A stretch of 64,000 nucleotides of DNA from Antennarius striatus (Eukaryota; Chordata; Actinopteri; Lophiiformes; Antennariidae). Below are positions 1 to 43,592 of the stretch, one piece after another (the stretch's first letter is position 1; every line of letters begins with the position of its first letter). The position numbers and the translations under genes are program-made. Location of the stretch: the NCBI RefSeq assembly GCF_040054535.1, contig NC_090794.1, forward strand, positions 1,363,501 through 1,427,500, given 5' to 3'. The notes under the pieces are model-generated. The model did no database searches, was not told where the DNA came from, and worked only from the letters and a program-made list of their open reading frames with translations.

Positions 1-1499
1 CAGAATGAGACGACATAAATTGCGGCCTTCTGCTACACCTTCACTGCGTCTGTCGCCATTTTCCAAATGGATGTTTTGCGCCAAGCAGCCGGTTCTTTTA
101 CCTCTCCGACACGCGCTGCTGCCCCAACACAGTCACCCCATTGAGACGCAAGGCAAGGCTGGCTCTACACTGCAGCCGTAACGACTCAAGTCAAAGCCAA
201 TGATGGTAATTCACTGTTAAAATCCGTGCTACCCAAGTCCAACCTTGCATCGCTCGCACAGAATGTCCCATTAGACACGTAGAATCTAACATGTGACATA
301 CAGCAGGCATGTCTCTGTATACAAGAATCAAATGGAGACCTTCTGACTGACAGTCTCTCTCTGGAATACCTCCAATGAGATAACTTATTCCTCTCGGCCA
401 TGCGTTTGAAGAAAGAGGAATATGTGTGTTACTCTTGAGGAATTTCTCCTCGTATATCTCCGGGCTGTTGAACGATGCTTCTCAGCTGCCTCGCTCCTTC
501 AAAGTCAATCAGACTTGATCGGACGACGGAGGCAGGAAAGACCTACCAAAGCGCCTCACAGGTAGACCGGTCTGGATCTGGTGTTGGCGATCGACGTCGC
601 TACTAACCGCCACTGGATTCCCCTTCAGGGGTGATTTCTATTTATAGCAGATGTGATGCTAACAGATGTGGATTAAAGAGAAACACAAGTGCTGCCGTCT
701 GCAGACCAACGCGGCTGGTGCGCCTGCAAAACACGTGAAACACAAAGACGGCTCAGAAAAGCGTGATTGACGCTTGTTTCGAGCACCTCGTCGGCCAGCG
801 TCTCACGAATCTGGAAGTAGAGACGGGGAATCCGGAGCTTTTGGAAACATCGCACCTTGAAAAGTCATCAGAAACCAACAAGAAGACATACATGGAAACT
901 TCTGGAACGCAGTTTCCCCCAAAGAGACTTCCGTGACAATAATATAGAATTAATCACTCCGCATTAAAAAACATCCTCAATGCTCGCGTTGGGGTGGAGG
1001 TTGAAGAGGGGGGGTTGTGGTCTCTGGCTGGTTGGCTCAGACTCACAAGTCTGGATGGAAAAGTCAGATCACAACAGGAGCTGCCTGCACCGGCTGGCCG
1101 GCTAAGTGGAGACGACGGCCAACAAACAGAAGCACATGGGCGGGACGACAGCAGCAGAATGTTGGATGTTTATTGGGGTTGTGGGTACAACTCGTCGGTC
1201 TCACGGCTCGTATACGGAGTGCGAGTCTGAATACTCAAATGCCACAACGTGTAAAGTCTGACTAGACGGCGTTTGTAATCAGATTACTCCGCGTGATGTG
1301 AACTCGCACACAAACCAGCCGAGGATGATGTGTTTTAGCATCTGTCGGTTCATTGTTTTAACTTTACGACTCATTTAACTGCTTTGTTTGTTTTTTGAAA
1401 AAGCAGCTGTGTCTAAAGATGAGCTGATGCTAACAAGCCTAGCCTTGCTAACGATGTAAAAGTGGGCGTGGTAGACCCATTTGAACTTGCAAATCAAAG

Positions 1500-1673
1500 T
1501 TGATACTGCCTGTTGTACTGCCTATTGTACTGCCTGTGTTGTCCTGCCCATGTTCTACTGCCTGTTGTACTGCCTGTTTACCGTGGGTCAGAGAGGACTG
1601 CAATTTCATCTGTGCTGTATGTCGTGCATATATGGTACACTTGACGATAAAACTGACTTTGACTTTTAAACGT
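1500..1673 (+). repeat. Short tandem repeats plus probable non-LTR retrotransposon 3' tail
   Basis: Positions 1504-1580 carry degenerate copies of a roughly 12-nt unit (TACTGCCTGTTG). They are followed by a segment ending in a CATATATGGTACACTTGACG / ATAAAACTGACTTTGACTTT stretch. A unique body ending in a short GACTTT-type reiteration is typical of 3' ends of fish LINE-type elements. The family cannot be named from sequence alone, and no reverse transcriptase frame lies nearby, so it would be a 5'-truncated copy. Confidence 0.45.
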
Positions 1674-4600
1674 GTCGGATCATCAAATAACCAAAAAATC
1701 TTGTATTTTCCTACGGATATTCTTTATTTTAACGGATAAATCAGAATGATTTAGTCGTCCGATTTTTCCTCTGGCGTCGATCGCAGGTTGTGAATCAATG
1801 GAAATTATCTCAACAACTCTGGATGGAACTTCACACAGTTTGGTGCAAAAACAAAAAAAACAAACAAAAGAAGCATCACCACGATTGGAAATACCCTGAC
1901 TTTTCATGGCGTCATCATCACGGCGTCTGCCTGAAATCTTTTGGCAGCTTTGCCTGAAAACTCTCACAAAGAGCTCGGCGGTTCCAGCAGACGGACGAGC
2001 TTGGCTCTGGGGTTTGTTTATGGCGCTAACAGTATTTATTTAATCATTAGCACACGCTGCTTGACTGTTTCAAGCGGAGCTCTTTCCACAACAAGGCCGG
2101 TCGTCTGCTGCTAATTATGCGCAAAATCGTTGATATAACGCCGCCGGTTTTTCAACAGGCCGGTCGATTACCGGCGGTTCGTTTGAACCCACCGGACTCC
2201 TGTCGGTCCTGTTCCGCGGTAACGAGCTCATCAACAATGGGTTCCATCCTCCCAGGGATGGAGTTTCATCATAGAGGAAGAAGAGTAGGAGGGATAGACA
2301 AAGAAACAGGCCACAGAAGGAATCACTCCTCATTTCAATCTGTTTCAACTTAATTGTCATAAAAGCTTGCAGGAAATTCAACTCTTGGACGTTAGCATCA
2401 GCGGAGAAGAAGCTGAATATACGAGTGGGTATACTTGACAGGCTTAGAAGTGTACTGGAAGAGCGACGTGGGCGTGAAATGAACAGGAGGAAACAGTGTT
2501 GAAAGAGGGAATGGCATTGAGGAAGTGGGTGTGAATTTCGTTGGGATGGCGGAACGACCACTTCGAGGGTTGAGGAAGTCGCAAATATCACATCCGTACC
2601 TAGAGAAATCCCCTGGCAGGACAATATTTTGATCTCTTCTATGACGGCCTCTAACTTTAACCTTTGCTCTCCAGCCTTGCCCCTACAAGTCATCTGATTT
2701 TACCCAGAATGCTTCACACCGCGGCCTCTCCTGTCAACTTTTTATATGTAGGCCTTTAATATGAAACGTTTAGATCTGGAATCTCGCGTTCCGGATCTTA
2801 GTGTGGACCATAATGAACCTCATGAGAATGTTTTTATCAGTTCACGACCGTTCTGGCTGGACGCCTGGATGACCACAGCTAAAACAACACGACTCTTTGC
2901 CGAATAAGGGATTAAACGTCTCTTTCATCGACGACGTTTCTCATCACCGACTATGTGGTCATCTGAACCAGAACGAAGTCCAGGAATGAGGCAAAATCCC
3001 AAAAACCAAATGAACTTCCAGAGAACCCTGGGAATGTGAAGGAACGCTGACAAACTGGAGACTAACCTCGTCAGCAGATGGAGGTTTTTTTCGGGGATTG
3101 AACACTAAAACATTCAAATATCACTGAATAAAACAAACGGTTAGGCTTCTTTTTGTCATATTTGATGCAAGTAGTCTATTTTCAATCCGGATTCAGACTC
3201 GCATGTTCTCTGAAACAAGCTGAAATGTTCAAACCTGGTAAACAAATCACGCGTTGTTACGTTTGAAATGGCTTTTTGACCCCAACTAGTTTTCCCTCTT
3301 TTCAAAAACACTTTCTGTCGTGACCCTGTCAGTTTTTCCGTGCTGGTTCCTGCTCCCAGTTTTCCATGTGAAGATGTGTTTAGACAGACAATGAAATATA
3401 ACAGACCGGAATGATAAATGGTTTCTGATGGATTCTTGTAGAAATACAGACAAACAACTCCTCTGTCCAGCATGATGTCATCATGAAGTCCGCCGAGAGC
3501 AGTTTTCATATTAAAGCAGGTTGCCGTGTTTATTGAAACCATTGCTCATCGGTTTTCAGTGGAGATTCCCAATCATCCAGGATATTAGATGTCAAAGTCG
3601 ACTTTTTTATTTCATCCTTTCAGATGTTTCAACACTCATCTGGAGGAGCGTCATTTTAAAGATATTTACGAGAAAAACCGCACGATGCTTTCCTTTATTT
3701 TCCTCTTCCGCTCACGTGTCGCGTCAGGATCACAAAGTTCAACTCTTTGACTCTTGATGCGCGACACAAATCAGTCGGATTTGCGCGACATCTGCGTATG
3801 CTAACCTGGCAACGCCTCACATTTGCACAGAAAGCTGTTTATCCGTCTTTGACGCGAAGCATAAAACTGGTTAGCAGCTAGCAGTTTGCAGCTAAGACTA
3901 GCCTGCATTCACATTATTGACACCTGAGTAGCCTCTGTTGCCATCCTGGATTCCTGTGATTGGAGGAAGGATACTGTCGTTCTATTGGCTGTAAACGGTG
4001 TCTGCTGCAGGTAAAGATACTATATCATGTCATAATATCCGACATCCTGAGTCTCCAGCCAAAACAGGAAATGCTGACTCTCAGGATGAGAAGAGACGTC
4101 CAGGTTCTGACAGAAGAATGTTTCGGCCTCTCTTCATTAAATCCACTGGGATTGTTAAATCAAAACCCACCTTTAATTTCCAAGGGGGATAAAACGGTAA
4201 CAGAGGTAGCAGCTTTAGCGATGACGGACGCGGACGCCAAAAAACACGGGGGAATTAAGACGTTTAGTTGGGGGTTGTGGGGCTTTTGGGCCGTTGAGTT
4301 CCTGAGGTTGATCCCGGCTCAGGAACATATCCATGAAGGGTAGTCGGAATAAATGTGAGCAATTGCGATCTCAGGTCTACTTTTTGCCCTTATATGGGCG
4401 ACCCCCCCCAGGCCCACATTGATTTATCACGCCGAAGCTGCCTGAATGAAGTCCACCTGTGTAACACAACCGCCAAGAATTACCCCAACACAGTCACGCC
4501 TTCTCCCGACAACTACCCCTTTCCCTTAAAGACCAGAGGCTCAAGACGGATTATCAGGTGAAGAAACTTTAACGCTCAGATGAAACGCCATCAGACGCAG

Positions 4601-19601: not shown

Positions 19602-22600
19602 CTAACCATGCAGGGACCCTGAGTGGACGGCGTCCTGGTACGACTGACCGCCCTCCTTCTGCTCCGGGAACAGTTTGATGAGGTCGTCGATGCGGAGGAT
19701 GGTGATGGCGGCCTCCGTGGCGAACTTCAGGCTCTTGGTTTTGACCATGGTGGGTTCGTAAACGCCGGCCTGGCGGTTGTCCCTTGGCTTCCCGTTCACC
19801 AGATCCAGACCGATCCTACCAGACAGAAACATTTAAACATGATCGGAAAAAGACGACTCAATATTCTCGGACAGGAAGCGGAAAAGACGGACGGGATCTC
19901 GGAGACTCACCACTTGAGGTTCTTGCGTTCAGGATTGACCTGAGCCTCGTTGTGGAACGCCCGAAGCTTCGCCACCAGATCGGTGGAGTCCTGCGCCGCG
20001 TTCACGGCCAGCGTCTTGGGGATGATGAGGAGGGAACGGGCGAACTCGGCGATGGCCAGCTGCTCCCGGGATCCCTGGATAGTGGAAAAAAACATTCAAT
20101 ATAGGCATGACTTCAACATACTCTCCAGGTTTCTACAGACCGACTGGGGCTCGCCCGATAAACCCGTCTTTCGTGGGTTTCCTCTCACCATGCTGGTGGC
20201 GTAATTCTCCAAGTAGATGGAGAGCGCCGCCTCTACGGCGCCTCCTCCCGGAACGACGGACTTGGACTCCAGCACCCTCTTGACCACGCAGAGGGCGTCG
20301 TGCAGCGAACGCTCCATCTCGTCGCACATGAAGTCGTTGGCCCCGCGCAGGATGATGGACGCCGACGTCCGAGCTTTGGTGCTGAAACCGATGCGTTAGC
20401 GTGTCAGACACGTTCACCGCTGAAGGGGCGGTGTTGTACCAAATTAACTCGTAACTCGCAAGAGGAAAACGGAAACGCTGCTCTTACTTCTTGACGAGGA
20501 TGAGCTCATCGTCACAGATGCGCTCCTGCACGACCTCCTCGGCTTGACCCAGCATGGTGGCCTCGAACGTCTCCTCCCCCTCCAGATTGGTCAGAGAGGG
20601 GCAGAGGGTGGCTGAGGAGGGACCAACACGCTCAATAAAAGACGACTAAATAAAAATGTTAGCACGTTTCAAACCTACCTCCTGTTGCCTTGGCGATGCG
20701 TTTCAGGTCCTTCTTCAGAACCCGTCTGACTGCCATCGCTCCTACATCCACAAAGTACTTGAGACACATGTCGTCGATGCCGCCGGTGGTCAGGATGACG
20801 TTGGCGCCCGACGCCAGAATCTTCTGGATCCTCTCCTTGGTGATGTCCGATTCTCTGGAGAGACAAAAACCCAACGGTGACTTCGTTTTGCCTCCGCAAA
20901 ACAAAAAACAAAACTGTTGAGCTCAGCGTTAAACGGCGTATCGGCTCGGAGAGGAGCCGCCGCCGCCTTGACGCCGGCTGCTGGTGCTTTCTCCCACGCG
21001 TATCACCGTGGAAACTATCAGTTCAGCATCACGGCAAATGTAAATGGGATTCAACCTTAAGGGGGATCAAGTTCGTACCTTTGTCTGATCTGGTCCAGCT
21101 TCTCCGGGTCGTTGATGACGACCTGGACTCCCATCTTCATCTTGGTCTTCTGCAGGCTGAAGTCCAGGCAGGCGATCTTTGCGTTAACGACACGCTTCAC
21201 CATACCTTTAGAACGGAAAGACAACACATTTGATGGGTGACGCACTCAACCGGCAAACGGAACGATGATACGAAATAACGCTTTGGTTTGTCTGGCGGAA
21301 GGGGCGGTACCACAGCTCAACTGACTGCGTCTTTACTCCTTCACGCCAGCATTCTCTCTCCCACGCGTATCACCGCCAACGCCACACCAGACATGGCGGC
21401 AAATTTAAATGGGAGTCCGATCAGACGCGGGCGACGCTTCTCAAACATACCTTGCGCGCCGACTGTGCAGTTCAGCGCGTATCCGTTCACCAGGAAGCTC
21501 TCCTTCTGGCTGCGCCCGTGGGCTTTCAGCACGTTGACGGAGTTGATGGGATATTTGGCCACGCCCTTGCTGTCCACGAACTTCACAGCAATCGCAGCGT
21601 CCACCACCATGTTAGCGAAGAACTCTGCATCGCTGATGGCTACGGGTTAAGTGTTAAAATCGATCGTACATGGCGTCACCTAGCTAACAAGGTAACAGCT
21701 GCACGGCCAAAAAGGATACACCCCAATGATCTTGGAGGACATGGACGTCTTGGCGGCGTTGAGTAAACAGTCTCTGCCCAGATCGTCGGCGGCGATGGTG
21801 AGATTCTCGTTGATGTAACGAACCGCCTCCCTGTTAAAAAAAAAAAAAAAAAAGTTAGCATCTCAACAAGACGATTAGCATCCATCCACATCGGCGGCGT
21901 CTTACTTGCAGGCCAGCCGATACCCGCTGATGACCGACGTGGGGTGGATCTTCTGCTTCACCAGCTCATCGGCGCTCTTCAGCAGCTCTGCAGCGATAAT
22001 CACCTACAGAGGATTTGAACTTTAAAACGGGAAGCGGCTCTGATTCGCCGCCGACAACACAACTTCCTGTTTGTACCATTGTTTCATTAGGGGCGGCAGA
22101 AGAGCGGCTGCTCCAACCCCTTCAGACATGAATGGATGATTTTTCTTTCCTGTTAGCATAGCCACGCGTCCGTGATGAAAGGCAGACGCGTGGTACTACA
22201 ACAGGAAGTGTTACGTACGACGGCCTCCGTCCCGACTCACCACAGACGTGGTTCCGTCTCCGACCTCCTTGTCCTGCAGGTCGGCCAGTTCACACAAGAC
22301 TTTGGCGGCGGGGTGCTCCACCTCCAGCAGCTTCAGGATGGTGGCGCCGTCGTTGGTGATGGTCACGTCCTGTCAACACAACTCGTGTCACAACGGATGC
22401 TTGGCGAATAGACGCAAATATGAACCGAGAGGTAATGGTACAGACCCCGATGTCGTCCACCAACATCTTGTCGAGTCCCACCGGTCCCAGGGAACTCTTG
22501 ACTATGTTGGCGATGGACGACGCCGCCATGACTGCAAAGATACAGATGAATCAAAGAAAACGGGTCACCTTGAACGCCCTCCAACCGGTGGAAGGTTCTA

Positions 22601-23361
22601 CAAACATCTACGACTGTGAGTCTGAATAGAGACCCAGAAAAGAGGCGATTATATTTTGAGGAACTGATGCAGATTGTGGATCACAGCTGGTAGCTAATCT
22701 ACAGGTAATCTATCTGATTAATCTACAATCAATCAGCTGTTTGCAATAACCAATCACACAAGAACAGTTTAAACTGATCAGATTAGCATCCACCTGTGAG
22801 CAGTGGAGGATGTTCATGCTAACCTAGCTTAGCATTAAATTTGCGAAAACAGTGGAGGTTCATGTTAATCTCTATCCTGTCAATTAAACACAGTTTTAAT
22901 CTGATAATTTAATCTAACGCACAGCCGACACGTTCTGTCAGATTATTTGAGCTAAAGAGTAAATTAGCCACACCCTCAGACCATGACTGTGTTCTCTTCA
23001 TTCAGAGGAAACTGAACGGTAACAAATCAATTACGATTCGATATTTAATAATATCGTAAAGTTCGTGTTACGTAAACGCAGCTGATTTCTTTTGTCTTCG
23101 TTAAACTTCACCGGAAACACAACGACACACGATAATAAAACAGCGTCAAGGTAAGCTAGCGTTAGCTGTAGCCACACGTGTGTTAGCGGCACACGAAAGC
23201 CCCTTCTGGCGTCGCGAGCTCGCGACGCGGGAGTAAAGACACGCGAAGCGGACGTGAAACACGAGACGGAGCTGCGTTCGAAACCCACCGTTCTGCGTGC
23301 GAACCGACTCCCCGGTGGTTCTCTGACCGAGAACGTTTAACGGACCGTCTAGCAGCGACAT
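19602..23361 (-). CDS. tcp1: CCT/TRiC chaperonin subunit alpha
   Basis: Subunit of the cytosolic chaperonin that folds actin and tubulin with ATP. Twelve exons (minus): 23289-23361, 22446-22531, 22241-22369, 21906-22003, 21720-21830, 21451-21632, 21079-21205, 20679-20854, 20488-20611, 20189-20381, 19911-20074 and 19602-19815. The product has 558 residues (human 556), all phases consistent. Group II chaperonin signatures are visible: [19 protein letters not shown], the ATPase motif GDGTTS (residues 90-95, with Asp91) and [11 protein letters not shown]. At exon 5/6 only the donor GGGGT|GTATCC with acceptor CCATCAG|C keeps the family spacing (IIGVDAEFF). Introns 3, 6 and 7 carry H/ACA snoRNA-like folds on the same strand, as expected for a snoRNA host gene. 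The promoter side has ZNF143-like motifs. Identification is secure. Confidence 0.97.
20912..21049 (-). ncRNA. H/ACA snoRNA-like RNA in tcp1 intron 7
   Basis: Transcript-sense sequence starts TCCCATTTACATTTGCCGTG and closes the first hairpin with CGCGTGGGA (TCCCA/TGGGA base stem). It is followed by an H box (AAAGCA), a GC-rich second hairpin (CGGCGT..ACGCCG, inner GGCTC..GAGCC) and an ACA three nucleotides from the predicted 3' end. The length is about 138 nt. The 5' half is clearly related to the RNA in intron 6. The base of the second hairpin is less regular, so confidence is lower. Such RNAs guide pseudouridylation with dyskerin; the target is not assigned. Confidence 0.6.
21286..21415 (-). 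ncRNA. H/ACA snoRNA-like RNA in tcp1 intron 6
   Basis: The 5' hairpin is closed by CTCCCA/TGGGAG, with an inner stem GCCGCC/GGCGG. It is followed by the H box AGAGAA, then a second hairpin closed by TGGCG/CGCCA with GAAGG/CCTTC above it, then ACA followed by AAC. The length is 130 nt, the usual H/ACA size. Human TCP1 is known to host SNORA20 and SNORA29; this one is most likely the SNORA20 equivalent, by host and size only. The fold was done by eye, without energy calculation. Confidence 0.75.
22069..22208 (-). ncRNA. H/ACA snoRNA-like RNA in tcp1 intron 3
   Basis: Hairpin 1 has the outer stem TTCCTGTT/AACAGGAA, a pocket TGTAGTA/CTATGCT and the upper stem CCACGCGTC/GACGCGTGG (9 perfect pairs). 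The H box is AGAAAA. Hairpin 2 has the outer stem CCATT/AATGG, a wide pocket and the upper stem GGGG/CCCC with AGCAG/CTGC inside. It is followed by ACA and AAC. The length is 140 nt. This is a textbook two-hairpin H/ACA architecture, probably equivalent to human SNORA29, which has the same host and a similar size. Guide targets were not worked out. Confidence 0.78.
22532..23288 (-). other. tcp1: tcp1 intron 1
   Basis: A 757-nt intron, the largest in the gene. No H/ACA fold, C/D box pair or repeat was convincing. The 5' (high-coordinate) part is CpG-rich and likely belongs to the promoter domain. Confidence 0.7.

Positions 23362-26012: not shown

Positions 26013-43592
<17,580 letters not shown>

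Follow-up and report, generated by a model that had tools for sequence, protein, structure and literature searches.

The 12-exon coding region of tcp1 (CCT alpha) occupies positions 19602..23361 on the reverse strand of the window, the 64,000-nt stretch of the Antennarius striatus genome analyzed here. The product of this region is T-complex protein 1 subunit alpha, and the joined protein scores 1062 bits against the alpha chain of the solved chaperonin 6qb8 in an alignment that covers residues 4-557 of 558. Introns 1 through 11 measure 757, 76, 237, 75, 87, 245, 224, 67, 106, 114, and 95 nt, the longest after intron 1 (757 nt) being introns 3, 6, and 7 (237, 245, and 224 nt). In this splice model, intron 5, which received no automatic splice option, was placed by hand at 21633-21719, giving a protein that reads ...KIIGVDAEFFAN..., and for introns 2, 3, and 11 one of two splice options was picked. 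We take human TCP1 to be the host of SNORA29. The same gene is given as the host of human SNORA20, a snoRNA with its target at 18S U651 (PMC3766210), and of both ACA20 and ACA29 in the chicken catalogue (PMC2653536), in agreement with the original prediction that the host role of TCP1 is conserved.

Introns 3, 6, and 7 each contain a predicted fold with the box H/ACA architecture of hairpin, hinge, hairpin, and tail, with an ANANNA hinge and an ACA placed 3 nt from the 3′ end. All three lie on the reverse strand, the sense strand of tcp1. The element in intron 3, a relative of SNORA29, spans 22069..22208 (140 nt), with its H box AAAUCA at 22142-22137 and its ACA at 22074-22072, while an alternative ACA 4 nt further along gives an equal score and an element end at 22065. 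The element in intron 6, a relative of SNORA20, spans 21286..21417 (132 nt; H box AGAGAA at 21357-21352, ACA at 21291-21289), and the one in intron 7, described below as its paralogue, spans 20912..21050 (139 nt; H box AAAGCA at 20990-20985, ACA at 20917-20915). The scorer behind these calls demanded an ANANNA hinge with a single stem-loop of at least 10 kcal/mol on each side, and an ACA followed by 3 nt or more; the score is the sum of both hairpin energies, and the smallest scorable length is 102 nt. With scores of −52.0, −55.3, and −54.3, introns 3, 6, and 7 head the ranking of the full 64 kb on both strands, which holds 23 candidates at or below −30 with the next at −46.7, and for none of the three did any of 200 dinucleotide shuffles match the observed score.

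The original prediction of three such elements of 130-140 nt on the tcp1 sense strand, each with the hinge and ACA described, is thus borne out, and its outer limits of 20912 and 22208 are the same in the fold scan. Its contrast with the shorter introns of the gene survives in part: introns 1, 9, and 10 contain no such fold, but introns 2, 4, 5, 8, and 11 could not be scored, so the contrast is partly empty because the scorer demands at least 102 nt. In the shuffle and fold test, intron 5 was taken as 21636-21709, that is, 74 of its 87 nt.

Two further structures were observed. A perfect 10-bp inverted repeat (ACTTCCTGTT / AACAGGAAGT) at 22200-22209 and 22062-22071 flanks the intron 3 element; it would rival the lower stem of the first hairpin and is preferred when the whole region is folded. 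Elsewhere in the window, the top unrelated H/ACA-like fold lies at 35728-35860 on the forward strand (−46.7) and has no Rfam match in the search over 64 kb.

At gathering scores, Rfam returned no match in the 64 kb, which is formally one half of the joint outcome that the original prediction named as its refutation. A rerun over 19-25 kb (6 kb) on an E-value threshold gave six matches, the top three RNA-family bit scores among them being those to SNORA29 and SNORA20 on the tcp1 strand, at the coordinates predicted. SNORA29 (RF00429) matches at 22065-22208 over its full length (1-140) with 39.4 bits and an E-value of 3.6e-4 in 6 kb, and SNORA20 (RF00401) matches at 21286-21416, again over its full length (1-128), with 30.2 bits and an E-value of 0.072 in 6 kb. 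A second SNORA20 match, at 20950-21051 in intron 7, scores 21.3 bits with an E-value of 6 and is convincing for the 5′ half alone. Intron 6 also drew weaker, overlapping matches to SNORA24 and SNORA74, and the sixth match is to a bacterial sRNA outside these introns (E-value 0.42). Over the full 64 kb the E-values become 0.0038 for SNORA29 in intron 3 and 0.77 for SNORA20 in intron 6, and the intron 7 match is absent from the results. All of these fall short of the gathering scores, which are 50 for SNORA29 and 60 for SNORA20.

If the Rfam matches were noise and the folds had arisen by accident in introns rich in GC, then scores uniformly under gathering are what one would expect. Such an accident would, however, have to place 3 of 11 introns at the top of the window, with 0 of 200 shuffles reaching each, and to return the very families that are right for a TCP1 host, and we regard it as highly improbable. 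The E-values of the SNORA20 matches alone are not significant; they carry more weight because TCP1 is the host of SNORA20 in human, where the target is 18S U651, and of ACA20 and ACA29 in chicken. The intron 3 element shares with SNORA29 its location in TCP1 and is read here, on its sequence, as a diverged orthologue rather than a formal member of the Rfam family.

The elements of introns 6 and 7 are alike. Their local alignment scores 49, a value that none of 1000 shuffles reached (maximum 32), and the arms of the 5′ hairpin that bear the pocket are identical at 17 of 18 and 17 of 19 bases. In the upper stem, two pairs have changed on both sides from intron 6 to intron 7 and are still paired (C-G to U-A and C-G to G-C), and one inner A-U pair is lost in intron 7. 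The likeness takes in a little of the 5′ arm of the 3′ hairpin, beyond which it stops. No kinship of intron 3 with either was found, since 109 and 308 of 1000 shuffles equal its scores against introns 6 and 7. Judged by this alignment, and with its kinship to SNORA20 traced through the intron 6 copy, the element in intron 7 is a predicted SNORA20 paralogue of that copy and not a third kind of snoRNA. The snoRNA set of this gene would then have been enlarged by duplication within the gene, so the enlargement originally predicted holds for the number of elements, but what has been added is a duplicate of SNORA20 and no new family.

In the whole genome (548 Mb in 42 contigs), the exact pattern of the SNORA20 5′ hairpin occurs at two places, both in tcp1. 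Used as DNA queries against the genome, the intron 6 and intron 3 elements each retrieved themselves alone, and diverged copies elsewhere could escape these searches and the exact pattern, since the intron 6 query did not return the intron 7 copy. A whole-genome search with the Rfam SNORA20 family came back empty even for the copies in the window and is uninformative. The motif GATACGC, which in the 5′ hairpin forms the right arm of the pocket, is repeated at 20936-20942 within the 3′ hairpin of intron 7, too distant from the ACA for a normal guide role.

How the intron 7 copy is now used admits two other readings. One is that the snoRNAs of introns 3 and 6 are real but that of intron 7 is a decaying duplicate that no longer forms a stable guide RNP, as might be suspected from the lowest Rfam score of the three (21.3 bits), a 5′ hairpin weaker than that of intron 6 (−19.3 versus −28.8 kcal/mol), the lost inner pair of the upper stem, and a 3′ hairpin whose likeness to the intron 6 copy lies mostly in the 5′ arm. 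Decay would nevertheless have left intact the H box, the ACA, and a 3′ hairpin that is strong (−35.0), with the pocket arms nearly identical to those of intron 6, and the two compensatory double changes also speak against it, though two alone may be luck; we think this reading unlikely. The other is that the copy has acquired a new function, its 5′ pocket backing up SNORA20 while a new 3′ hairpin serves another target. A 5′ half held while the 3′ hairpin was remodelled is consistent with this, and so are the partial matches that an assumed 3′ pocket makes best with the assumed 18S sequence, at 18S-116 (7+3) and 18S-686 (4+6), but once G-U pairs are admitted, random targets often gave totals of 10 for both pockets put through this control, and the best fold of this hairpin has almost no pocket, which leaves the new function equally doubtful.

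We consider it very likely that introns 3, 6, and 7 each encode a box H/ACA guide snoRNA, predicted from sequence to be a SNORA29 orthologue, a SNORA20 orthologue, and a SNORA20 duplicate, and we hold with high confidence that the three genes are real and ordinary in kind. Intronic snoRNAs are released by exonuclease trimming up to the bound RNP, and each of the three would be freed in this way from its spliced tcp1 intron, with trimming ending at a bound particle of dyskerin, NHP2, NOP10, and GAR1. The duplicate in intron 7 would have kept the 5′ guide pocket and gained a new 3′ hairpin. Both SNORA20 copies would act at 18S-U651, and for SNORA29 a possible partner of the 5′ pocket is the 28S 5′ end.

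The 5′ pocket of intron 6 is formed by the right guide AUACGC at 21365..21370 and the left guide UUU at 21403-21401; the intron 7 pocket has the same AUACGC at 20998..21003 and UUU at 21038-21036, all on the reverse strand. For pairing we used an assumed 18S sequence of 1869 nt, in which all 38 presumed pseudouridine positions are U. Against this sequence the pocket of the Rfam SNORA20 consensus makes 3+7 pairs at U651, and the chicken table gives the same figures for ACA20 (PMC2653536). On inspection against the assumed 18S, the copies in introns 6 and 7 both carry G instead of U opposite A650, giving 6+3 pairs with one mismatch, and the pairing search found no contiguous match of at least 9 for these pockets at U651. 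We infer that the two copies act at 18S-U651, a role somewhat weakened by the G opposite A650 in both. In the best folds, the 3′ hairpin of intron 6 has an internal loop; the intron 7 hairpin has next to none and hardly any pocket. The 3′ pockets of SNORA29 and intron 3 and the assumed ones of introns 6 and 7 reached totals of at most 10 against assumed sequences of 18S, 5.8S, U1, U2, U4, U5, and U6, and no convincing target for any 3′ pocket was found in these RNAs.

As to the target of SNORA29, the chicken catalogue gives ACA29 as an orphan (PMC2653536), and a bovine study reports 18S-1329 and 28S-4262 as program-made predictions (PMC12427106). The left guide of the 5′ pocket of SNORA29, CATTTGACT, is contained in a published SNORA29 primer (PMC7760958), and the right guide was taken from the Rfam consensus. 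The human 28S end, TAAGCATATTAGTCAGCGG, was derived from a northern probe that appears in two papers and is presumed to be for human cells. Between this pocket and this end there are 5+8 pairs, all Watson-Crick, and among random 7.1-kb targets a total of 13 Watson-Crick pairs was reached once in 400 GC-rich sequences and never in 400 equal-base ones. The corresponding pocket of intron 3 has the right guide UAUGCU at 22155..22160 and the left guide UAGU at 22198-22195 on the reverse strand. For the teleost 28S end we assume AAGCATATTACTAAGCGG. With this assumed end the intron 3 pocket forms 4+6 pairs, again all Watson-Crick; none of the 400 GC-rich random targets reached 10 such pairs, and 8 of the 400 equal-base ones did. 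The crossed combinations fail, both the intron 3 guide against the human end and the human guide against the assumed teleost end, and at the two target positions that differ between human and assumed teleost 28S the changes in the guide match both. The 28S comparison covered the short 5′ piece alone, which was picked after the match had been noticed.

When G-U pairs are allowed, the human duplex totals 14; 16 of the 400 GC-rich random targets reach this value, as do 18 of the 400 equal-base ones, and most random targets attain a total of 10. On the same terms, U2-159 (8+3), 18S-1174 (7+3), and 18S-649 (3+7) equal or exceed the total of the intron 3 pocket in the assumed RNA sequences, and for the human SNORA29 pocket the rivals in these sequences are U2-89 and 18S-649, each with a total of 11. 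We know of no pseudouridine near this site at the 28S 5′ end in the human maps. That the 5′ pocket of SNORA29 pairs with the 28S 5′ end, modifying or chaperoning it, with guide and target having changed together, is a tentative proposal to which we give a little less than an even chance. If it holds, the target may be the first U of the UU in UAAGCAUA-UU-AGUCA of 28S, which we take to be U45 in human numbering; the role may be pseudouridylation or chaperoning of the 5.8S-28S junction; and the co-change may run from UGACU with AGUCA in mammals to UAGU with ACUA in fish, the fish target being the assumed one.

A DNA query and four patterns, one of them allowing up to three mismatches, did not find the rDNA of A. 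striatus in the assembly, from which it may be missing. No 28S letters from a fish were found in the open-licence papers searched, where the sequences met were two northern probes, the nematode primer CTTAGTAATATGC, and a primer called ITS4; a shark paper mentions a fish 28S primer by name but does not print its letters, and the main text of a zebrafish rRNA paper contains no 28S 5′ end letters. The 28S 5′ end ATTACTAAGCGG was read in one contaminant contig (L002) of a bacterial MAG, which shows that such a reading exists in an animal, not that fish have it. Positions 1-3539 of this contig, filed under a Phycisphaerales MAG, are by eye animal ribosomal DNA (5.8S, ITS2, and the start of 28S). 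The 18S and 28S patterns each had 0 matches in viral contigs, as did the mammal 28S pattern in genome contigs. A 28S search of plasmids gave 167 records, and the 20 matches listed were all to bacterial plasmids at 77-80% identity and are probably 23S; one of the 167 records falls in the 90-95% identity band.

The A. striatus locus retains the host role of TCP1 in a genome where standard Rfam thresholds miss it, and it offers an intragenic SNORA20 duplication in which the guide half appears to have been kept and the other half rebuilt. Among the matches listed in a search of the open-licence literature, no title refers to a set of snoRNAs in fish tcp1. As snoRNA genes the three are ordinary, and what should interest specialists is the proposed target of SNORA29, which can be tested directly; the chicken catalogue has this snoRNA as an orphan (PMC2653536).

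Compared with SNORA29 (RF00429), the intron 3 element shares the host TCP1, both hairpins, the 5′ hairpin core ACCAC...GUGG-CUAUGCU, and CUGAAG/AUGAAA in the 3′ hairpin, but its left 5′ guide is UAGU where SNORA29 has GACU. The elements of introns 6 and 7 share with SNORA20 (RF00401) the host TCP1 and a 5′ hairpin with an AUUU / AUACGC pocket; they differ in being two copies in adjoining introns, in having G in the pocket, adjoining the target site, where SNORA20 has U, and in 3′ hairpins that are unlike the Rfam consensus and unlike each other. The chicken table places ACA20 in TCP1 intron 9 and ACA29 in intron 1 (PMC2653536), whereas the A. striatus relatives lie in introns 6/7 and 3, so that intron position may not be conserved between the two species, or the gene models may differ. 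In chicken, duplication into an adjacent intron is described as the main source of new snoRNA paralogues (PMC2653536), and the arrangement here is of the same cis type, with a paralogue in the adjoining intron of the same host and the guide region held, but in TCP1, where the chicken table gives one isoform of ACA20, in intron 9.
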